The notes under the pieces: generated by a model | Databases searched by the model: none | What the model was told of the DNA's origin: nothing | The model's input: only the letters and a program-made list of their open reading frames with translations | Assembly (NCBI GenBank): GCA_020721005.1 | Contig: DYNP01000004.1 | Coordinates: 64,652 to 128,651 of the forward strand | Direction of reading: 5' to 3' | Origin: Thiomargarita sp. | GTDB lineage: Bacteria > Pseudomonadota > Gammaproteobacteria > Beggiatoales > Beggiatoaceae | DNA length: 64,000 nt | Made by a program: the position numbers and the translations under genes | Shown here: in pieces, positions 14,711 through 63,650 of the stretch | Layout of the letters: every line of letters starts with the position of its first letter | How positions within the stretch are numbered: the first letter of the stretch is position 1

Positions 14711-14951
14711 TAGACCTCTTGCAAAAGTAAATGATGCGATAAAGATGAGATAAGAAAAAATAAAAGGGAAATTCCCGTTGGAGTGAAGGTTTTAGCCGGT
14801 CAGCCGTAGGCAGCCCCCCCCCACATACACAAATTGCAAGGGCCTACCGCTGGCCGGCTAAAGCCTCCACTCCAAAGCCTCCATTCCAACGTACCTTAAC
14901 TGATGCGCAACTCCCATTTTTTCATGATCGCATACTTTTGCAAGAGGTCTA
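14711..14951. mobile_element. MITE-like element, copy 2 (complete)
   Basis: 241 bp with terminal inverted repeats TAGACCTCTTGCAAAAGTA (14711-14729) and its exact complement (14933-14951). Both ends carry TA, compatible with a TA target duplication. Internal arms at 14778-14799 and 14854-14875 form a long hairpin. Just after the right arm, 14876-14891 (AGCCTCCATTCCAACG) duplicates part of the arm, in the same variant as the array at 1-249. There is no coding capacity. Confidence 0.92.
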
Positions 14952-22668: not shown

Positions 22669-22899
22669 TTGGAATATAGGCTTTAGCCGGAGTAGAGGCC
22701 CTTGGAGTGGAGGCTTTAGCCGGTTAGCCGTAGGCATCCCCCCACATACACAAATTGCAAGGACCTACCGCTGGCCGGCTAAAGCCTCCACTCCAGGATT
22801 CCACTTCAGGACTCCACTCCAAGGGCCTCCACTCCAACGTATCTTAACTGAGGGGCAACTCTCATTTTTTCGTGATCGCATACTTTTGCAAGAGGTCTA
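22669..22899. mobile_element. MITE-like element, copy 3 (left end missing)
   Basis: The right terminal repeat TACTTTTGCAAGAGGTCTA is intact (22881-22899). The left terminal repeat is not found. The central hairpin (arms near 22703 and 22775) is conserved. Extra partial arm copies occur on both sides (22669-22700 and 22796-22840, with repeated CCACTCCA). It ends 38 bp before the next gene's ATG. Confidence 0.85.
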
Positions 22900-42467: not shown

Positions 42468-43571
42468 TTATTTTTCCCCTCGAATATCAATTGTAGCCCC
42501 ATCGCTCAGAAAATGGGCACCGTCCACTACAATTGCTTCTCCGACACTGACTCCTTCCAAAATTTCGACCAAGCCATCTTTACGTATACCTGTTTTAACT
42601 GAGCGTTGAGTGGCCTGATTATTCTTGACCAAGTAAACCACTTCTCCAATCAGCCGTTTCACTACACTGATTTCTGGAACGAGAACTGAGTGATGTTTTT
42701 CCAGAGTAATCAGACCTTTAGCAGTGTATCCAGGTTTCCAGTCTTGTTCATTAGTGAACTCCACCAACACTTCCAGGGCCCGATTGCCGGTCTCCAATAC
42801 AGGATTTAAACGGGAGATGGTGGCAGTAATTACAGACGTCGTTTCCATTCCCAAAGATAATGTGACTGGCAAGTCAATTTTGATTTGAGGTGCTATGGTT
42901 TCTGGTAAAAAGAGACGGGCCCGTAACTGATCAGTCACTACCAGTTGAAACAGAGGGGTGCCCGGTTGCACAAAGTCTCCCACGGTCACTAAGCGTTGAC
43001 GAATGGCGCCCTGAATGGGACTGAGAATATTTGACTTCCCAAGGTAATAGTGAATTTCTTTGAGACGAGCTTGCAGACCTAACACTTGGGCTTCTGAAAT
43101 AGCCAATTCAGTTTGGGCACCGTCATAATCATGTTGGGGCACGGTTTGTTTTTTCAACAAAGTGTATAAACGTTGAACATTGGTCTGCTGATTGCTGATC
43201 ACTGCTTGTAGGCGTTGCAAATCGGCTTCCACTTTGGTCAATTCAATTTGATAAAGTTCTGTATCCAATTTGGCTAACACTTGCCCCGGTTTGACTCGAT
43301 CGCCTTCATCCACCGTTACAATCAACAGTTTCCCAGCCACTTCTGCAGATATCCGAGGGGTATGAGGACTTTCCAAAGTGCCCAAAGCGGTCACTGTAAC
43401 AGTCAATTCTTCCATTTTGGCTTTGGTAAAGGTCACTGGAATGCTTCTGGTGGTGGAAGGTTCCTTTTCCTGTGGAGTAGATTCTTTGGCTGATGAGCCA
43501 TAAATTGGAGAGGAGCCGGCCAAGATGGCAATCAAGAATATCAATTTAAATTGTTGTTTTATCGGCTTCAT
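42468..43571 (-). CDS. RND-type efflux periplasmic adaptor (HlyD/MFP family)
   Basis: 367 aa. A signal-type N-terminus (about 1-28) is followed by an N-terminal lipoyl half (VAGKLLIVTVDEGDRVKPGQVLAKLD), a coiled-coil hairpin (about 105-170), the second lipoyl half (SPIQGAIRQRLVTVGDFVQPGTPLF) and beta-barrel and membrane-proximal domains. It would bridge an inner-membrane pump and an outer-membrane channel. Neither pump nor channel gene is adjacent. It lies 150 bp downstream of a NtrC-type regulator on the same strand, a possible target of that regulator. Confidence 0.9.
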   Translation of the reverse strand: MKPIKQQFKLIFLIAILAGSSPIYGSSAKESTPQEKEPSTTRSIPVTFTKAKMEELTVTVTALGTLESPHTPRISAEVAGKLLIVTVDEGDRVKPGQVLAKLDTELYQIELTKVEADLQRLQAVISNQQTNVQRLYTLLKKQTVPQHDYDGAQTELAISEAQVLGLQARLKEIHYYLGKSNILSPIQGAIRQRLVTVGDFVQPGTPLFQLVVTDQLRARLFLPETIAPQIKIDLPVTLSLGMETTSVITATISRLNPVLETGNRALEVLVEFTNEQDWKPGYTAKGLITLEKHHSVLVPEISVVKRLIGEVVYLVKNNQATQRSVKTGIRKDGLVEILEGVSVGEAIVVDGAHFLSDGATIDIRGEK

Positions 43572-43721: not shown

Positions 43722-45095
43722 TTAAGCAATTTCTTCATTCAATTCTTTAGTCCCGGACAGACCATATTTTTTCAGCAAGCGATAGGTATTGCGTTCGCTG
43801 ATACCCAGAGCTTCTGCCACTCGCAGTCGATGTCCAGAGTATTTTTGTAGCAACACTTTCAAGTAGTGTTTTTCAATTTCTTCTAAAGTGGGTTCGTGAT
43901 CAAAGGACAGTTCAAAATTGCTATTTTTTCTCTTGATGATGGTGGAAAAGGTAAGGTGTTCGGGAACGATGGCCGGTCTATCAGCAGCCAGGATAATAGC
44001 TCTTTCAACTACATTTTTGAGTTCCCGGATATTGCCAGGCCAATCGTAGGCAATCAGTTCTTTCATAGCAGTGGGACTGATAGTTTTATTGACGCGACGG
44101 GAAAAACAGTGGTGATTTAGGAAATGTTGAACCAGCAGGGGAATGTCTTCACGCCGTTCCCGAAGGGGGGGAATGGTGATGACAAAGCCGCTGAGACGGT
44201 AGAATAAGTCCAGGCGGAATGTTCCTTCTTGACTCATATTTTCCAGGTTACAGTTGGTGGCGGCAACAATGCGAACGTCGGAGCTAAGATCTTTATTTCC
44301 ACCCAATCGACGGAATCTACCCGTTTCTAATACCCGAAGTAATTTGGCTTGAATTGGGGCTTCAATTTCTCCAATTTCATCTAGGAATAAAGTGCCTCCA
44401 TCAGCGTCTTCAATCAGACCTTTTTTTTGCCGATCTGCCCCGGTAAAGGAGCCTCGTTCATGACCAAACAGTTCAGATTCAAAGAGTTTTTCTTGCAGAG
44501 AACAGCAATCTAAAGCTACGTAGTTGCGATGACTGCGTTGGCTGTGTTTATGAATTTCAGCCGCCACGAGTTCTTTGCCAACGCCACTTTCTCCATGAAT
44601 GAGCACGCTCATATTGCTGGGTGCTACTTTGCGAATGAGATCATGAACTTTTTGAATGGCTTTGCTTTCACCGATCATGGCTTTGCTATGATGATGTTGA
44701 ACTTGAGATTTATAGAATTGGCAGTCTTGACGCAAGGTAACAGTCTCCAAAACACGTTTAATGGTAAGTTCCAGTTCATCTAGGTTGATGGGTTTAACTA
44801 AGTATTCGGCAATTCCTGCTTTGATGGCATCCACAGCTTCTCGAATGGAACCGTAGGCGGTAAGCAGTACAACTGGGGGTAAATTGCTGAGTTCTGCGAA
44901 TAATTCGGCGCCATTGCCATCAGGTAGGCGTCCATCCAATAGGACTAAGGCGGGTTCGTGACTGTTCAGATATTCTCTTGCGGCAGATAAAAGGGTGACA
45001 CTGTTGACTTGATAGCCAACGCTTTCAAGTGTTTTGGTCAGAAGTTGATTGAGAACAATGTCATCTTCGACGACTAAAACTGTAGGGCGTTCCAT
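43722..45095 (-). CDS. Sigma-54-dependent response regulator (NtrC family)
   Basis: 457 aa from the ATG at 45095, preceded by AGGTGA; a GTG three codons upstream lies within that ribosome site. Receiver (about 1-120; VLVVEDD, LLDGRLPDG, KPINLDE), AAA+ domain (about 135-370; Walker A GESGVGKE, FLDEIGE) and a Fis-type helix-turn-helix (RVAEALGISERNTYRLLKKYGL region). The sigma-54 contact loop reads GSFTGA instead of the usual GAFTGA. It forms a pair with the sensor kinase 17 bp upstream. Confidence 0.93.
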   Translation of the reverse strand: MERPTVLVVEDDIVLNQLLTKTLESVGYQVNSVTLLSAAREYLNSHEPALVLLDGRLPDGNGAELFAELSNLPPVVLLTAYGSIREAVDAIKAGIAEYLVKPINLDELELTIKRVLETVTLRQDCQFYKSQVQHHHSKAMIGESKAIQKVHDLIRKVAPSNMSVLIHGESGVGKELVAAEIHKHSQRSHRNYVALDCCSLQEKLFESELFGHERGSFTGADRQKKGLIEDADGGTLFLDEIGEIEAPIQAKLLRVLETGRFRRLGGNKDLSSDVRIVAATNCNLENMSQEGTFRLDLFYRLSGFVITIPPLRERREDIPLLVQHFLNHHCFSRRVNKTISPTAMKELIAYDWPGNIRELKNVVERAIILAADRPAIVPEHLTFSTIIKRKNSNFELSFDHEPTLEEIEKHYLKVLLQKYSGHRLRVAEALGISERNTYRLLKKYGLSGTKELNEEIA

Positions 45096-45112
45096 TTTGC
45101 TCACCTGGGGGT

Positions 45113-46819
45113 TTATGGGTTATTGGCATTGGGTAAGGTGATGAGGAATTCACAACCAGGAGCATGAGTTTGCAGGACTTCGATGCGGCCATGATAACGT
45201 TCAATAATGCTTTTACAGATGGCGAGTCCCAGTCCAGAGCCTTTTTTTCCTTGAGTACGATGGCTGAAAAAAGGTTCAAAAATGTTGTTGAGAATGCTGG
45301 GGTGAATACCAGTACCAGTGTCTTTAACACTGAGTTGAATTATATCCTCTTTAGTACGAGCAGTGATGTTCACTTCTCCTCCTTGGGGCATAGCATTGAG
45401 GGCATTTTGGAGTAAATTGAATATGAGCATACGGATATCAGTTTCTACGGCAAGAATTCGGTGAAGTTGGTCATTAAAATTGGCACCGATGCTGATATTT
45501 TGTTCTTTGCTTTCAAAGGCAAGTAAGGCAATGGTATCTAAAATGACTTCGTTTAGGGAAATCAGTTGTCGTTGTTCGGTGCTGGGCGCTGCCAGTTTTA
45601 AAAGGCGTTGGGTGACTAGAATGCATTTGTCAATTTGCTTGTCGACTAACAGAAGATAATCGGTAATTTGTGAAAGGTTAGGGGTAGAGTGGGTGAGAAT
45701 GCGTAAACTGGCTTGTAAGGCTAGACGAATGGAGGAGAGTGGGTTGTTGATGTCATGCGCCACACCGGCAGCCAATTGTCCAAGGGAGGCCAGTTTTTGT
45801 TCATGGGAAAATTGGATGGTTTGACTGAGGTCTCGCACGGATTCTACAATGAATTTTTGTTGTTGCTTGTGCAGATTGACTTCCATCATGGCGGCCCCAA
45901 TTTCAACTTGTAATTTGCTGCCATCGGCTCGAACATGTTCGGTCAATAATTTGATGGAGTGTCCAGGGTGTTTGATTTCATGAAGAGGACAGGTCATCAG
46001 GGTTGGAGGACAGGGAGTTTGACGGGCATAACTGGAAAGATGGCAGAGAGGGGTTTGTTCAAAAGTATTTTTGCCAAGTCCCAGTTGTTGATGGTAGGCG
46101 TGGTTGGCGGCAACAATGCGATAATTTTGGTCAATGATGCGAATGCCATCGGGAATGGCATCGATAAGAGATTGGAAAAATTTTTTTTGTTCTTGTCCAA
46201 GACAGACACTGGTTTGTAATTGATCGGAGAGTTGATGAATGTAGGTGGAAAGGGTCATCAATTCATTGGGAGAGGTGTCCCTTGCAGAAGCAGGAAGTGT
46301 GGATGCAGATTGAACTATTTGCAGCAGTTGTTTGAGAGGGAATAGTAACTGTTTTTGTACAAACCAGTAGAGAATAAACAGTATGAACAGGATCAGCAAC
46401 GTACTAAACCCAATGATGGTAAGACCATTTTTAAACAAGTTATGTTGTAAAATTTGACCGTTGACCAATAAAATTTCTTGCAAATGATTGGACATCCAAT
46501 GATGGCAGTCTGGACAGGCGGGATTGCTGTTGATGTGATTGACGGTGAGTAGGACTTTTTGTTCGCTGAGGAAAGTTTGAGGGTTGATCCAAAATTGATC
46601 TTGATGACTGACTTTGAGGTTGGGATAGGTGTGAAAACCAGGGCGCTTCATGAGATCGGGATAAGTGGAGATTAAAACTTGCCGTAAATCTTTTTGGTAA
46701 TAAGTTTGTAGCACCAAAAATAAAAGGGTGGTGCAACTGGCAAGTAAACAAACGGCCAATACCAAGAGGAATCGATGAGTTAATGAGGTGACCATCCAGA
46801 ATGAACTTTGCATTTTCAT
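45113..46819 (-). CDS. Membrane sensor kinase with a periplasmic CxxCH motif
   Basis: 568 aa. Helices at about 15-40 and 131-154 enclose a periplasmic segment of about 90 residues containing ACPDCHHW (Cys102, Cys105, His106), the c-type haem attachment pattern. A HAMP-like linker and a PAS domain (about 218-335) follow; the PAS has Cys259, Cys270 and Cys277 in the spacing of Cys-rich PAS sensors. The kinase core is NtrB-like: AGVAHDINNPLSSIRLA (phospho-His), NLLQNALNAMPQGG, DTGTGIH, GSGLGLAI. Haem or redox sensing is an inference. GAGGA precedes the ATG. Its partner is the NtrC-type regulator. Confidence 0.9.
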   Translation of the reverse strand: MKMQSSFWMVTSLTHRFLLVLAVCLLASCTTLLFLVLQTYYQKDLRQVLISTYPDLMKRPGFHTYPNLKVSHQDQFWINPQTFLSEQKVLLTVNHINSNPACPDCHHWMSNHLQEILLVNGQILQHNLFKNGLTIIGFSTLLILFILFILYWFVQKQLLFPLKQLLQIVQSASTLPASARDTSPNELMTLSTYIHQLSDQLQTSVCLGQEQKKFFQSLIDAIPDGIRIIDQNYRIVAANHAYHQQLGLGKNTFEQTPLCHLSSYARQTPCPPTLMTCPLHEIKHPGHSIKLLTEHVRADGSKLQVEIGAAMMEVNLHKQQQKFIVESVRDLSQTIQFSHEQKLASLGQLAAGVAHDINNPLSSIRLALQASLRILTHSTPNLSQITDYLLLVDKQIDKCILVTQRLLKLAAPSTEQRQLISLNEVILDTIALLAFESKEQNISIGANFNDQLHRILAVETDIRMLIFNLLQNALNAMPQGGEVNITARTKEDIIQLSVKDTGTGIHPSILNNIFEPFFSHRTQGKKGSGLGLAICKSIIERYHGRIEVLQTHAPGCEFLITLPNANNP

Positions 46820-47510: not shown

Positions 47511-47542
47511 TTGACCCAGCGCTCACCCTACACCGTTATAAT
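47511..47542 (+). promoter_or_regulatory. Possible sigma-70-type promoter of the Met-rich protein gene
   Basis: TTGACC (47511-47516) and a perfect TATAAT (47537-47542), but the 20-bp spacer is longer than usual. A palindrome lies directly downstream. Confidence 0.45.
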
Positions 47543-47544
47543 TT

Positions 47545-47573
47545 AATTTGAGTATTTTTAAAATACTCAAATT
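47545..47573. promoter_or_regulatory. 29-bp AT-rich palindrome in the leader
   Basis: AATTTGAGTATTTT (47545-47558) and its exact complement AAAATACTCAAATT (47560-47573) with one central base. It lies just after the likely -10 box and 44 bp before the ATG, so it may be an operator or a 5' mRNA hairpin. Confidence 0.7.
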
Positions 47574-47616
47574 TAACATAACCCCTAAACTTATATCCTA
47601 TGAAGAGGAAAAATCA

Positions 47617-48213
47617 ATGACTGATTGCAAAACACTGATCATTAAAACAGTTGGATTGTGGATTATTTTCATCAATACCCTTTTACCGGTATCTACGGTA
47701 TTAGGCAATGACAATACCGGGAACAAACAAACCGTAGGCAACATTTTAGGAATCAGCGGCTGGTATGAACGTTATGCGAATGGGCAAATCGTGTTATACC
47801 CATTGATTGGCAACTCAAGTTACGGCATGAGTTCCATGTACGGCTTACCAAATACCATGAGCAATCTATACAACATGTTAGGCATGAGTGGATTGTACAG
47901 CATGTCAGGAATGGGAGGAACTTCGACGGAAAATCCTCCAGAACAGTTACCTAAAACAACCCAGTCCACTGCACCCAATTCTACGTCAAATCCACCCAAA
48001 GTCACCGGGATGCAAGGCATGATGGGAATGTTAGGGATGCAGGGGATGATAGGAATGATGGGAATGCAGGGGATGATAGGAATGTATGGCTTATCAGGCA
48101 GTTATCAGATGACTTTTGGACGATTTTGGATCACCAAAGAAGGACAATTAACCCTCTATCCAGTCAGCCTCTTAGAAACCGAAGAAACCTCTGATGACGC
48201 AGATAATCAATAA
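47617..48213 (+). CDS. Secreted Met/Gly-rich repeat protein
   Basis: 198 aa from the ATG at 47617, with AGAGGAA 6 nt upstream. A signal peptide (about 1-30) is followed by residues 45-63 with GISGWY and GQIVLYPL. A Met/Gly/Tyr-rich stretch (70-100), a Pro/Thr/Ser linker (101-130) and a repeat segment (131-157) come next; the last is built from MQGMIGM units, 11 Met in 28 residues. The end repeats the first module with GLSGSY and GQLTLYPV (158-183), then an acidic tail. I recognise no family. Surface or periplasmic structure, or soft-metal binding by Met, are possible. It is followed by a CBS-domain kinase. Confidence 0.72.
   Translation: MTDCKTLIIKTVGLWIIFINTLLPVSTVLGNDNTGNKQTVGNILGISGWYERYANGQIVLYPLIGNSSYGMSSMYGLPNTMSNLYNMLGMSGLYSMSGMGGTSTENPPEQLPKTTQSTAPNSTSNPPKVTGMQGMMGMLGMQGMIGMMGMQGMIGMYGLSGSYQMTFGRFWITKEGQLTLYPVSLLETEETSDDADNQ
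48008..48087 (+). repeat. In-gene minisatellite encoding the Met/Gly repeat
   Basis: Two near-identical blocks of ATGCAGGGGATGATAGGAATG follow a diverged earlier block. The copies are identical at synonymous sites, which points to recent duplication or homogenisation. Confidence 0.85.
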
Positions 48214-63349: not shown

Positions 63350-63650
63350 TAGACCTCTTGCAAAAGTATGCAATCATGAAAAAATGAGAATTGCCCCTCA
63401 GTTAAGATAGTTGGAGTGGAGGCTTTAGCCGGTAGATTGGAGTAGAGGCTTTAACCGGTTAGCCGTAGGCATCACCCCACATATACAAATTACAGTAGTC
63501 TACCGCCGGCCGGCTAAAGCCTCCACTCCAAGGTACCAGCTAAAGCCTCTACTCCAAGGTACCGGCTAAAGCCTCTACTCTAAAAGGGATTTCCCTTTTA
63601 TTTTTTCATATCTCATTTTTATCGCATCATTTACTTTTGCAAGAGACCTA
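63350..63650. mobile_element. MITE-like element, copy 4 (complete, expanded arm)
   Basis: 301 bp in inverted orientation to copy 2. Ends are TAGACCTCTTGCAAAAGTA (63350-63368) and TACTTTTGCAAGAGACCTA (63632-63650, two mismatches). The central hairpin is present. The arm is tandemly repeated at about 63511-63585 as GGTACC-bounded CGGCTAAAGCCTC units, a smaller version of the array at 1-249. The sub-terminal AAGGGATTTCCCTTTTATT matches the left part of copy 2. No ORF. Confidence 0.9.

Follow-up and report, generated by a model that had tools for sequence, protein, structure and literature searches.

What is the role of a small, predicted exported protein rich in methionine and glycine in a Thiomargarita genome, and with which partners does it act? 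The question is raised by a gene in the 64,000-nucleotide stretch of DNA that we analysed (contig DYNP01000004.1; hereafter the window), the features of which are collected in Table 1. The product of this gene belongs, as a satellite, to a group of exported Met-Gly proteins that accompanies a distinct DmsA-like clade, mostly in bacteria with dsrA; gene order and co-occurrence show this association.

Table 1. Features at the Met/Gly protein locus, in window coordinates.
Feature	Position	Strand	Basis
NtrC-type sigma54-dependent response regulator, downstream of kinase	43722–45104	-	Pfam Sigma54_activat (8e-67), Response_reg, HTH_8; GSFTGA
Histidine kinase, divergent from window gene, with N-terminal CPDCH (c-type haem motif)	45113–46819	-	Pfam HATPase_c, HisKA, PAS_8
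29-bp perfect AT-rich palindrome in leader	47545–47573		Two 14-nt arms, exact, with a 1-nt centre
Met/Gly-rich exported protein (export predicted), two hairpin modules, 198 aa	47617–48213	+	ORF, translation, composition, relatives, model
N-terminal hairpin module GWYERYANGQIVLYP, residues 48–62	47758–47802	+	Alignments; model strands 47–52/58–62
(G)-M-x-G repeat part of linker	48007–48093	+	Tandem repeat 48007–48085, direct repeats
C-terminal hairpin module GRFWITKEGQLTLYP, residues 168–182	48118–48162	+	Alignments; model strands 166–172/178–182

The open reading frame runs from 47548 to 48213 if translation begins at a TTG, and from 47617 if it begins at an ATG, which is preceded by AGAGGA (47604–47609) and yields the 198-residue form used here. 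A hydrophobic N-terminal helix (residues 4–21 in the structure model) accompanies a predicted signal peptide. The mature part, taken from residue 31 on (168 residues), holds 19 methionines, the number given in a preliminary description of this DNA, together with 26 glycines, 9 prolines whose spacing we judged not to be regular, and neither cysteine nor histidine; the whole protein contains 11 MxxM motifs. A tandem repeat scan revealed a DNA repeat of period 27 (2.9 copies, 86% matches), which as protein reads as 11 G-x-x triplets in a row with Met after Gly. At 86% matches, the earlier characterisation of the DNA repeats as nearly identical was a little strong.

The two end modules are homologous in the register G48–P62 against G168–P182, with 6 of 15 residues identical; when the remainder of the protein was shuffled 5000 times, 9 of the shuffles contained a match as good. 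Both had been recognised at the outset, but in a wrong register, GLSGSY not being the counterpart of GISGWY. In an AlphaFold model built with seven sequences, the signal helix and the two hairpins are the only predicted structure; pLDDT is 69–85 in the hairpins (ten-residue blocks), 58 at their ends and mostly below 50 in the linker, in a model that is poor overall (mean pLDDT 53.8, pTM 0.33). A search of Pfam and NCBIfam with the window protein returned no model above its cut-off, Pfam Collagen reaching 17.4 bits against a cut-off of 27.2, and three collagen-type chains retrieved from the PDB (E 0.034–0.32) were set aside. Assigned to no known family, the protein represents, as judged from sequence, a new one. 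These results bear out the preliminary description of a secreted Met/Gly repeat protein with duplicated end modules and no recognised family: reading frame, composition and recurrence in relatives all agree with it, and export is predicted.

Relatives were found in a sample of 42 genomes from 25 genera of a family taken to be Beggiatoaceae, for which PMC11172852 gives this same number of genera in GTDB. A five-row profile matched 14 of them, some only through the Met-Gly repeats, and inspection showed that nine encode a two-hairpin protein (G000, G002, G007, G020, G021, G023, G049, G050 and G056, the last with its gene split over two contig ends); a query with the single protein gave 9 matches among 40 relatives, and the genome of the window holds a single copy. 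Among named genomes, a scan with the window protein alone found no relative, and a scan with the alignment found six loci, in metagenome-assembled genomes of Thiotrichaceae, Ca. Parabeggiatoa, Thioploca and Thiomargarita, so the module, which the preliminary description had proposed to search for across genomes, does have homologues. Seven aligned members share an invariant G48, W49, E51, G56, Q57, L60, Y61 and P62 in the first module and G168, I172, L178, L180 and P182 in the second. The linker differs greatly between orthologues and is Met-poor in some, the G047-type relatives L047 (in G050) and L048 (in G049) having Met-poorer linkers; conservation is higher in the hairpins than in the Met array.

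The kinase/regulator pair adjoins the two-hairpin gene in G000, G007 and G023, and the pairs of G007 and G023 resemble that of the window in size and N-terminus. Kinase and regulator also adjoin Met-Gly genes at five loci (L058, L135, L153, L157, L159), and four others (L125, L154, L155, L156) have a CxxCH kinase with no regulator in the stretch listed; except for the window pair and the L051 kinase, these proteins were named from their first residues and length. All seven related kinases examined carry CxxCH in the N-terminal part, and that of L051 gives a Tll0287-like match below its cut-off (18.2 against 24.1). Downstream of the window regulator lies a gene for a membrane-fusion protein (HlyD_D23, HlyD_3; 42468–43571, minus strand).

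A DmsA-like gene follows the two-hairpin gene directly in G002, G056 and G049, and a 108-residue DmsA-like remnant does so in G050, giving four of the nine genomes. In the genome of the window the two-hairpin gene adjoins neither dmsA copy, and in G020 and G021 neither a DmsA-like gene nor a kinase/regulator pair was seen beside it. No recurring copper gene was seen next to the two-hairpin gene, most neighbours being judged by their first residues only.

The DmsA-like enzyme itself belongs to an operon with the conserved order Met-Gly protein, multihaem cytochrome c, DmsA, DmsB, TorD. In the genome of the window, contig C132 carries DmsA (846 residues), DmsB, a TorD-like chaperone and a four-haem cytochrome, all four named by NCBIfam models below their respective cut-offs, with an (MxG)3M sequence at the upstream contig end; further Met-Gly genes, whose products bear spaced MYPMYGM units, lie at the start of contig C11, and a second DmsA on C81. 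Across 35 DmsA-like loci (22 within the family and 13 outside it), 24 have an ORF for a cytochrome with 4–6 haems upstream, and 22 of these 24 show (MxG)3M within 4 kb upstream; the remaining two are L119, where an ORF rich in Met (28%) and Gly (31%) lacks the strict pattern, and L121, which ends at a contig edge. The other 11 loci comprise two cut by contig ends (L134, L162), two with a two-hairpin gene containing the pattern (L042, L043), one with a two-hairpin gene without it (L048), and six in which neither repeat nor two-hairpin gene was seen in the available upstream stretch (L126, L129, L130, L131, L133, L161). The Met-Gly proteins of the operon are longer than the window protein, and several share its hairpin, which occurs before the enzyme in L058, L125, L151, L154, L156 and L157 (reading YFKITPQGQIFFYP in L151, L154 and L157) and also, on contigs that carry no dmsA, in L050 and L051; none was seen in the Met-Gly proteins of L120, L123, L127, L135, L153, L155 and L159.

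The partner enzyme exceeds the cut-offs of Pfam Molybdopterin, Molydop_binding and TAT_signal, and stays under that of NCBIfam dmsA_ynfE (569.1 against 777.7 bits). It can be aligned to DMSO and TMAO reductases, and a serine occupies the place of the Mo ligand of DMSO reductase. In the 33 loci read out of 35 given, RT[TS]SWSVPS was caught in 18, and all 28 stretches caught have SYAG instead of SYGW. An exported small protein with the core RPxxAP ... QGxWYTPFxxPGM ... YDxR also recurs beside Met-Gly genes, in 12 copies (L095:1360–1671, minus strand; also L045, L051, L058, L125, L127, L135, L153, L154, L155 and L156); at E ≤ 0.01 it gave no Pfam match in L095, the first copy of L045, L058 or L127, and no NCBIfam match in L095 or L045. 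At L128 (5652–7862, minus strand), three 185-residue ORFs with identical first 45 residues, spaced by 575 nt, lie between dmsB and dmsA together with a fourth, different ORF.

Co-occurrence across genomes links the repeat to the enzyme beyond single loci. The enzyme is present in 16 of the 42 family genomes, and intact in 8 of the 9 with a two-hairpin protein as against 8 of the other 33. The pattern (MxG)4M was detected in 27 of the 42, comprising 15 of 16 enzyme carriers and 12 of 26 others; at least eight sites, a threshold chosen after seeing the data, occur in 14 genomes, of which 13 are carriers and G006 is the exception. In a class sample of 369 Gammaproteobacteria genomes, with the enzyme called at E ≤ 1e-250, 16 have the enzyme and 25 have (MxG)6M, namely all 16 carriers against 9 of the 353 others. 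These nine (G076, G103, G126, G244, G263, G277, G288, G312, G327) yielded no enzyme in a search at E ≤ 1e-30; G277 and G312 belong to the same genus as enzyme carriers. Thirteen of the 16 carriers fall in 10 other families, and the pairing of Met-Gly protein with enzyme is present in 11 families within the class sample. A backward control matched 2 of 42 family and 2 of 369 class genomes; Fisher tests of co-occurrence ignore relatedness, and their values are too small. By its sequences the DmsA-like clade is sharply bounded and patchy: the enzymes of carriers are 68–100% identical to the query, whereas among 23 chosen genomes without it, several from the carriers' families, two gave any match at E ≤ 1e-30, at 28–29% identity.

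The palindrome that the preliminary description reports in the leader of the window gene is exact; none of 300 first-order Markov simulations of the 797-nt intergenic region reached its length, and it is the only copy in its genome with up to 3 mismatches allowed. No counterpart was seen upstream of eight orthologues; we therefore rejected it as a conserved operator, and the dedicated control proposed for it is unsupported. Upstream of L048 there is a different, longer palindrome with 22-nt arms, and upstream of L047 a palindrome with 10-nt arms. The likely promoter placed at 47511 is doubtful, and we rejected it as a sigma70 promoter: its elements, TTGACC (47511–47516) and TATAAT (47537–47542), are separated by a 20-nt spacer, and it is absent from the promoter scan output. 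A sigma54 promoter was likewise rejected for the window gene, the best site (20.7/25.4) lying 725 nt upstream and being equalled by 11% of 200 shuffles. Of 13 regions preceding Met-Gly or small-protein genes, 11 have a sigma54-type site with p ≤ 0.05 (uncorrected, from 200 mononucleotide shuffles per region); of 9 regions preceding two-hairpin genes, none has. The kinase/regulator pair may control the Met-Gly operon rather than the window gene.

Taken together, these proteins may form an undescribed system that deals, outside the inner membrane, with oxidised methionine or with stored sulfur; no description of the Met-Gly/DmsA cluster was found in the open-licence literature searched. Our preferred interpretation, possible though short of probable, is that the Met-Gly proteins are the Met-rich partner of an S-oxide-reductase-like system, their methionines serving as an oxidant sink recycled by the enzyme. 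In the mechanism that we infer, Met residues located outside the inner membrane would absorb oxidant, turning into sulfoxides; the multihaem cytochrome c of the operon would feed the DmsAB-like enzyme, which would reduce the sulfoxides again. The hairpins might anchor or present the Met/Gly linker, and the haem-bearing kinase with the sigma54 regulator would switch the operon on by redox state. Counting against this interpretation are SYAG in place of SYGW, the better conservation of the hairpins than of Met, the position of the window gene away from both dmsA copies, the absence of either kind of neighbour in G020 and G021, the lack of a convincing sigma54-type site at the window gene, and the six DmsA-like loci with neither repeat nor two-hairpin gene; the association with dsrA would suit a sulfur role equally. 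The Met-Gly proteins, which resemble low-complexity noise, become parts with named, testable partners, and give a clue to how redox is handled near stored sulfur.

To our knowledge, few systems are known in which Met-rich sink proteins are recycled by a dedicated molybdoenzyme. MrpX of Azospira suillum is reportedly paired with YedY1 (MsrP), and the present system would work in the same way with unrelated parts. The pairing of a Met-rich peptide with a Mo-type methionine sulfoxide reductase is known, and MrpX-YedY1 and BcrXQP of Brucella melitensis (PMC8315932) likewise tie a Met-rich exported peptide genetically to a molybdoenzyme of sulfoxide chemistry. Those systems have MXKDX repeats, an MsrP of the sulfite oxidase fold and ECF sigma control, whereas here we find MxG repeats with hairpins, an enzyme of the DMSO reductase family, a multihaem cytochrome c, and a haem-sensor kinase with a sigma54 regulator. 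The window protein resembles MrpX and BcrX in being Met-rich behind a hydrophobic N-terminal helix, but its repeat is M-x-G and MXKDX is absent, as is an msrP/msrQ operon; the divergent gene encodes a kinase, and related operons hold DmsAB-like genes. If the Met-Gly proteins are indeed an oxidant sink, the pairing has been built with another enzyme family, another repeat and another mode of control.

Other comparisons concern the enzyme. According to the accessible part of PMC7402097, a DorA-type DMSO reductase reduces methionine sulfoxide in proteins, SYGW is called necessary for sulfoxide reduction, and no dedicated Met-rich partner is described. The partner enzyme agrees with DorA in superfamily and in the serine at the aligned Mo-ligand place, but differs in SYAG and in being an Fe4S4-type DmsA with DmsB. 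In other large sulfur bacteria DmsAB has been read as DMSO respiration (PMC5728499). The present proteins share DmsA, DmsB and TorD-like parts and a weak DmsE-type cytochrome match with DmsABC/DmsEFAB, and differ in scores under the NCBIfam cut-offs for all four, in the Met-Gly partner, and in that no DmsC membrane anchor was noticed among the neighbours.

The dsrA distribution bears on a different role, which we regard as unlikely, in which the Met-Gly proteins would form a coat on the periplasmic sulfur globule, or a docking site there for molybdoenzyme and cytochrome, the enzyme acting on stored sulfur or polysulfide. At E ≤ 1e-60, dsrA was found in 117 of the 369 class genomes, of which 14 are among the 16 carriers and 103 among the 353 others, a count that pools oxidative and reductive types; the named relatives are large sulfur bacteria, and the C11 proteins with their spaced MYPMYGM units are reminiscent of globule proteins, for which regular prolines after the signal peptide are given as a trait (PMC7356093). 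Yet 103 of the 117 dsrA genomes lack the enzyme, and dsrA does not separate carriers within the family, where 8 of 14 genomes without the enzyme exceed the cut-off. Among all carriers searched, dsrA exceeded it in 24 of 28, with G004, G020, G032 and G151 below. Both the enzyme and (MxG)4M are missing from G010 and G041, taken for the globule formers Beggiatoa alba and B. leptomitoformis. Like the sulfur globule proteins (SgpA–C of Allochromatium, the 15-kDa protein of Beggiatoa), the window protein is a low-complexity protein of a sulfur bacterium with predicted export, but it has Met-Gly rather than regular prolines, hairpin modules, and in its family a gene linkage to a molybdoenzyme. It is improbable, too, that the Met-lined G-M-x hairpin proteins belong to an undescribed periplasmic system of sulfur-oxidising Gammaproteobacteria as a solid-phase redox partner of a new branch of DMSO reductases, possibly on the globule, with enzyme and cytochrome acting on stored sulfur; if this were true, the question of how globule sulfur is mobilised would become directly testable.

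We consider it distinctly unlikely that the triplets are purely structural, with G-x-y forming a collagen-like or polyglycine-II bundle, the hairpins serving as caps or docking sites for operon proteins, and no redox chemistry at Met. The G-x-x triplets, which come in runs of 3 to 117 in a set of 17 Met-Gly proteins and in a run of 11 in the window protein, would fit such a fibre or scaffold, as would the relative L006, which exceeds the Pfam Collagen cut-off (95.5 against 27.2 bits), and the Met-Gly segments on FKBP-type and DUF928 proteins of the family. The window protein, however, remains under that cut-off, has few prolines and a linker that is disordered in the low-confidence model, and the preference for Met would be left unexplained. 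From the collagen-like bacterial proteins Lcl and Scl, which share the G-x-y triplets, it differs in the same scarcity of proline and sub-threshold scores and in Met nearly always following Gly.

Copper or silver binding by the MxxM motifs, suggested in the preliminary description, is highly improbable: the 11 motifs and the membrane-fusion protein (CusB or HlyD type by HlyD_D23) would suit it, but the mature protein has no His or Cys, no pump gene adjoins the membrane-fusion gene in the ORF list, no gene of the latter kind comes after the regulator at L059 or L045, as judged by first residues, and the recurring partner is a molybdoenzyme. Low-complexity drift, by which Met-Gly repeats would expand easily in exported proteins with no shared function, could account for the 12 of 26 enzyme-free family genomes with at least one (MxG)4M, some in the GGM form that is characteristic of GroEL tails, but is hardly credible given the constant position ahead of one operon across 10 further families, the conserved hairpins and a backward control near zero.

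Met-Gly segments also stand behind the signal peptides of other proteins in the family, at L054:6132–7112 (minus strand), L056:6756–7559 (minus strand), L053 and L055, on an FKBP-type isomerase, a DUF928 protein and Ala-rich coiled-coil-like proteins. Elsewhere in the window, tandem repeats that have a GCTAAAGCCTCCA-like core in common were observed at 1–249, 14860–14889, 22786–22836 and 63513–63580.
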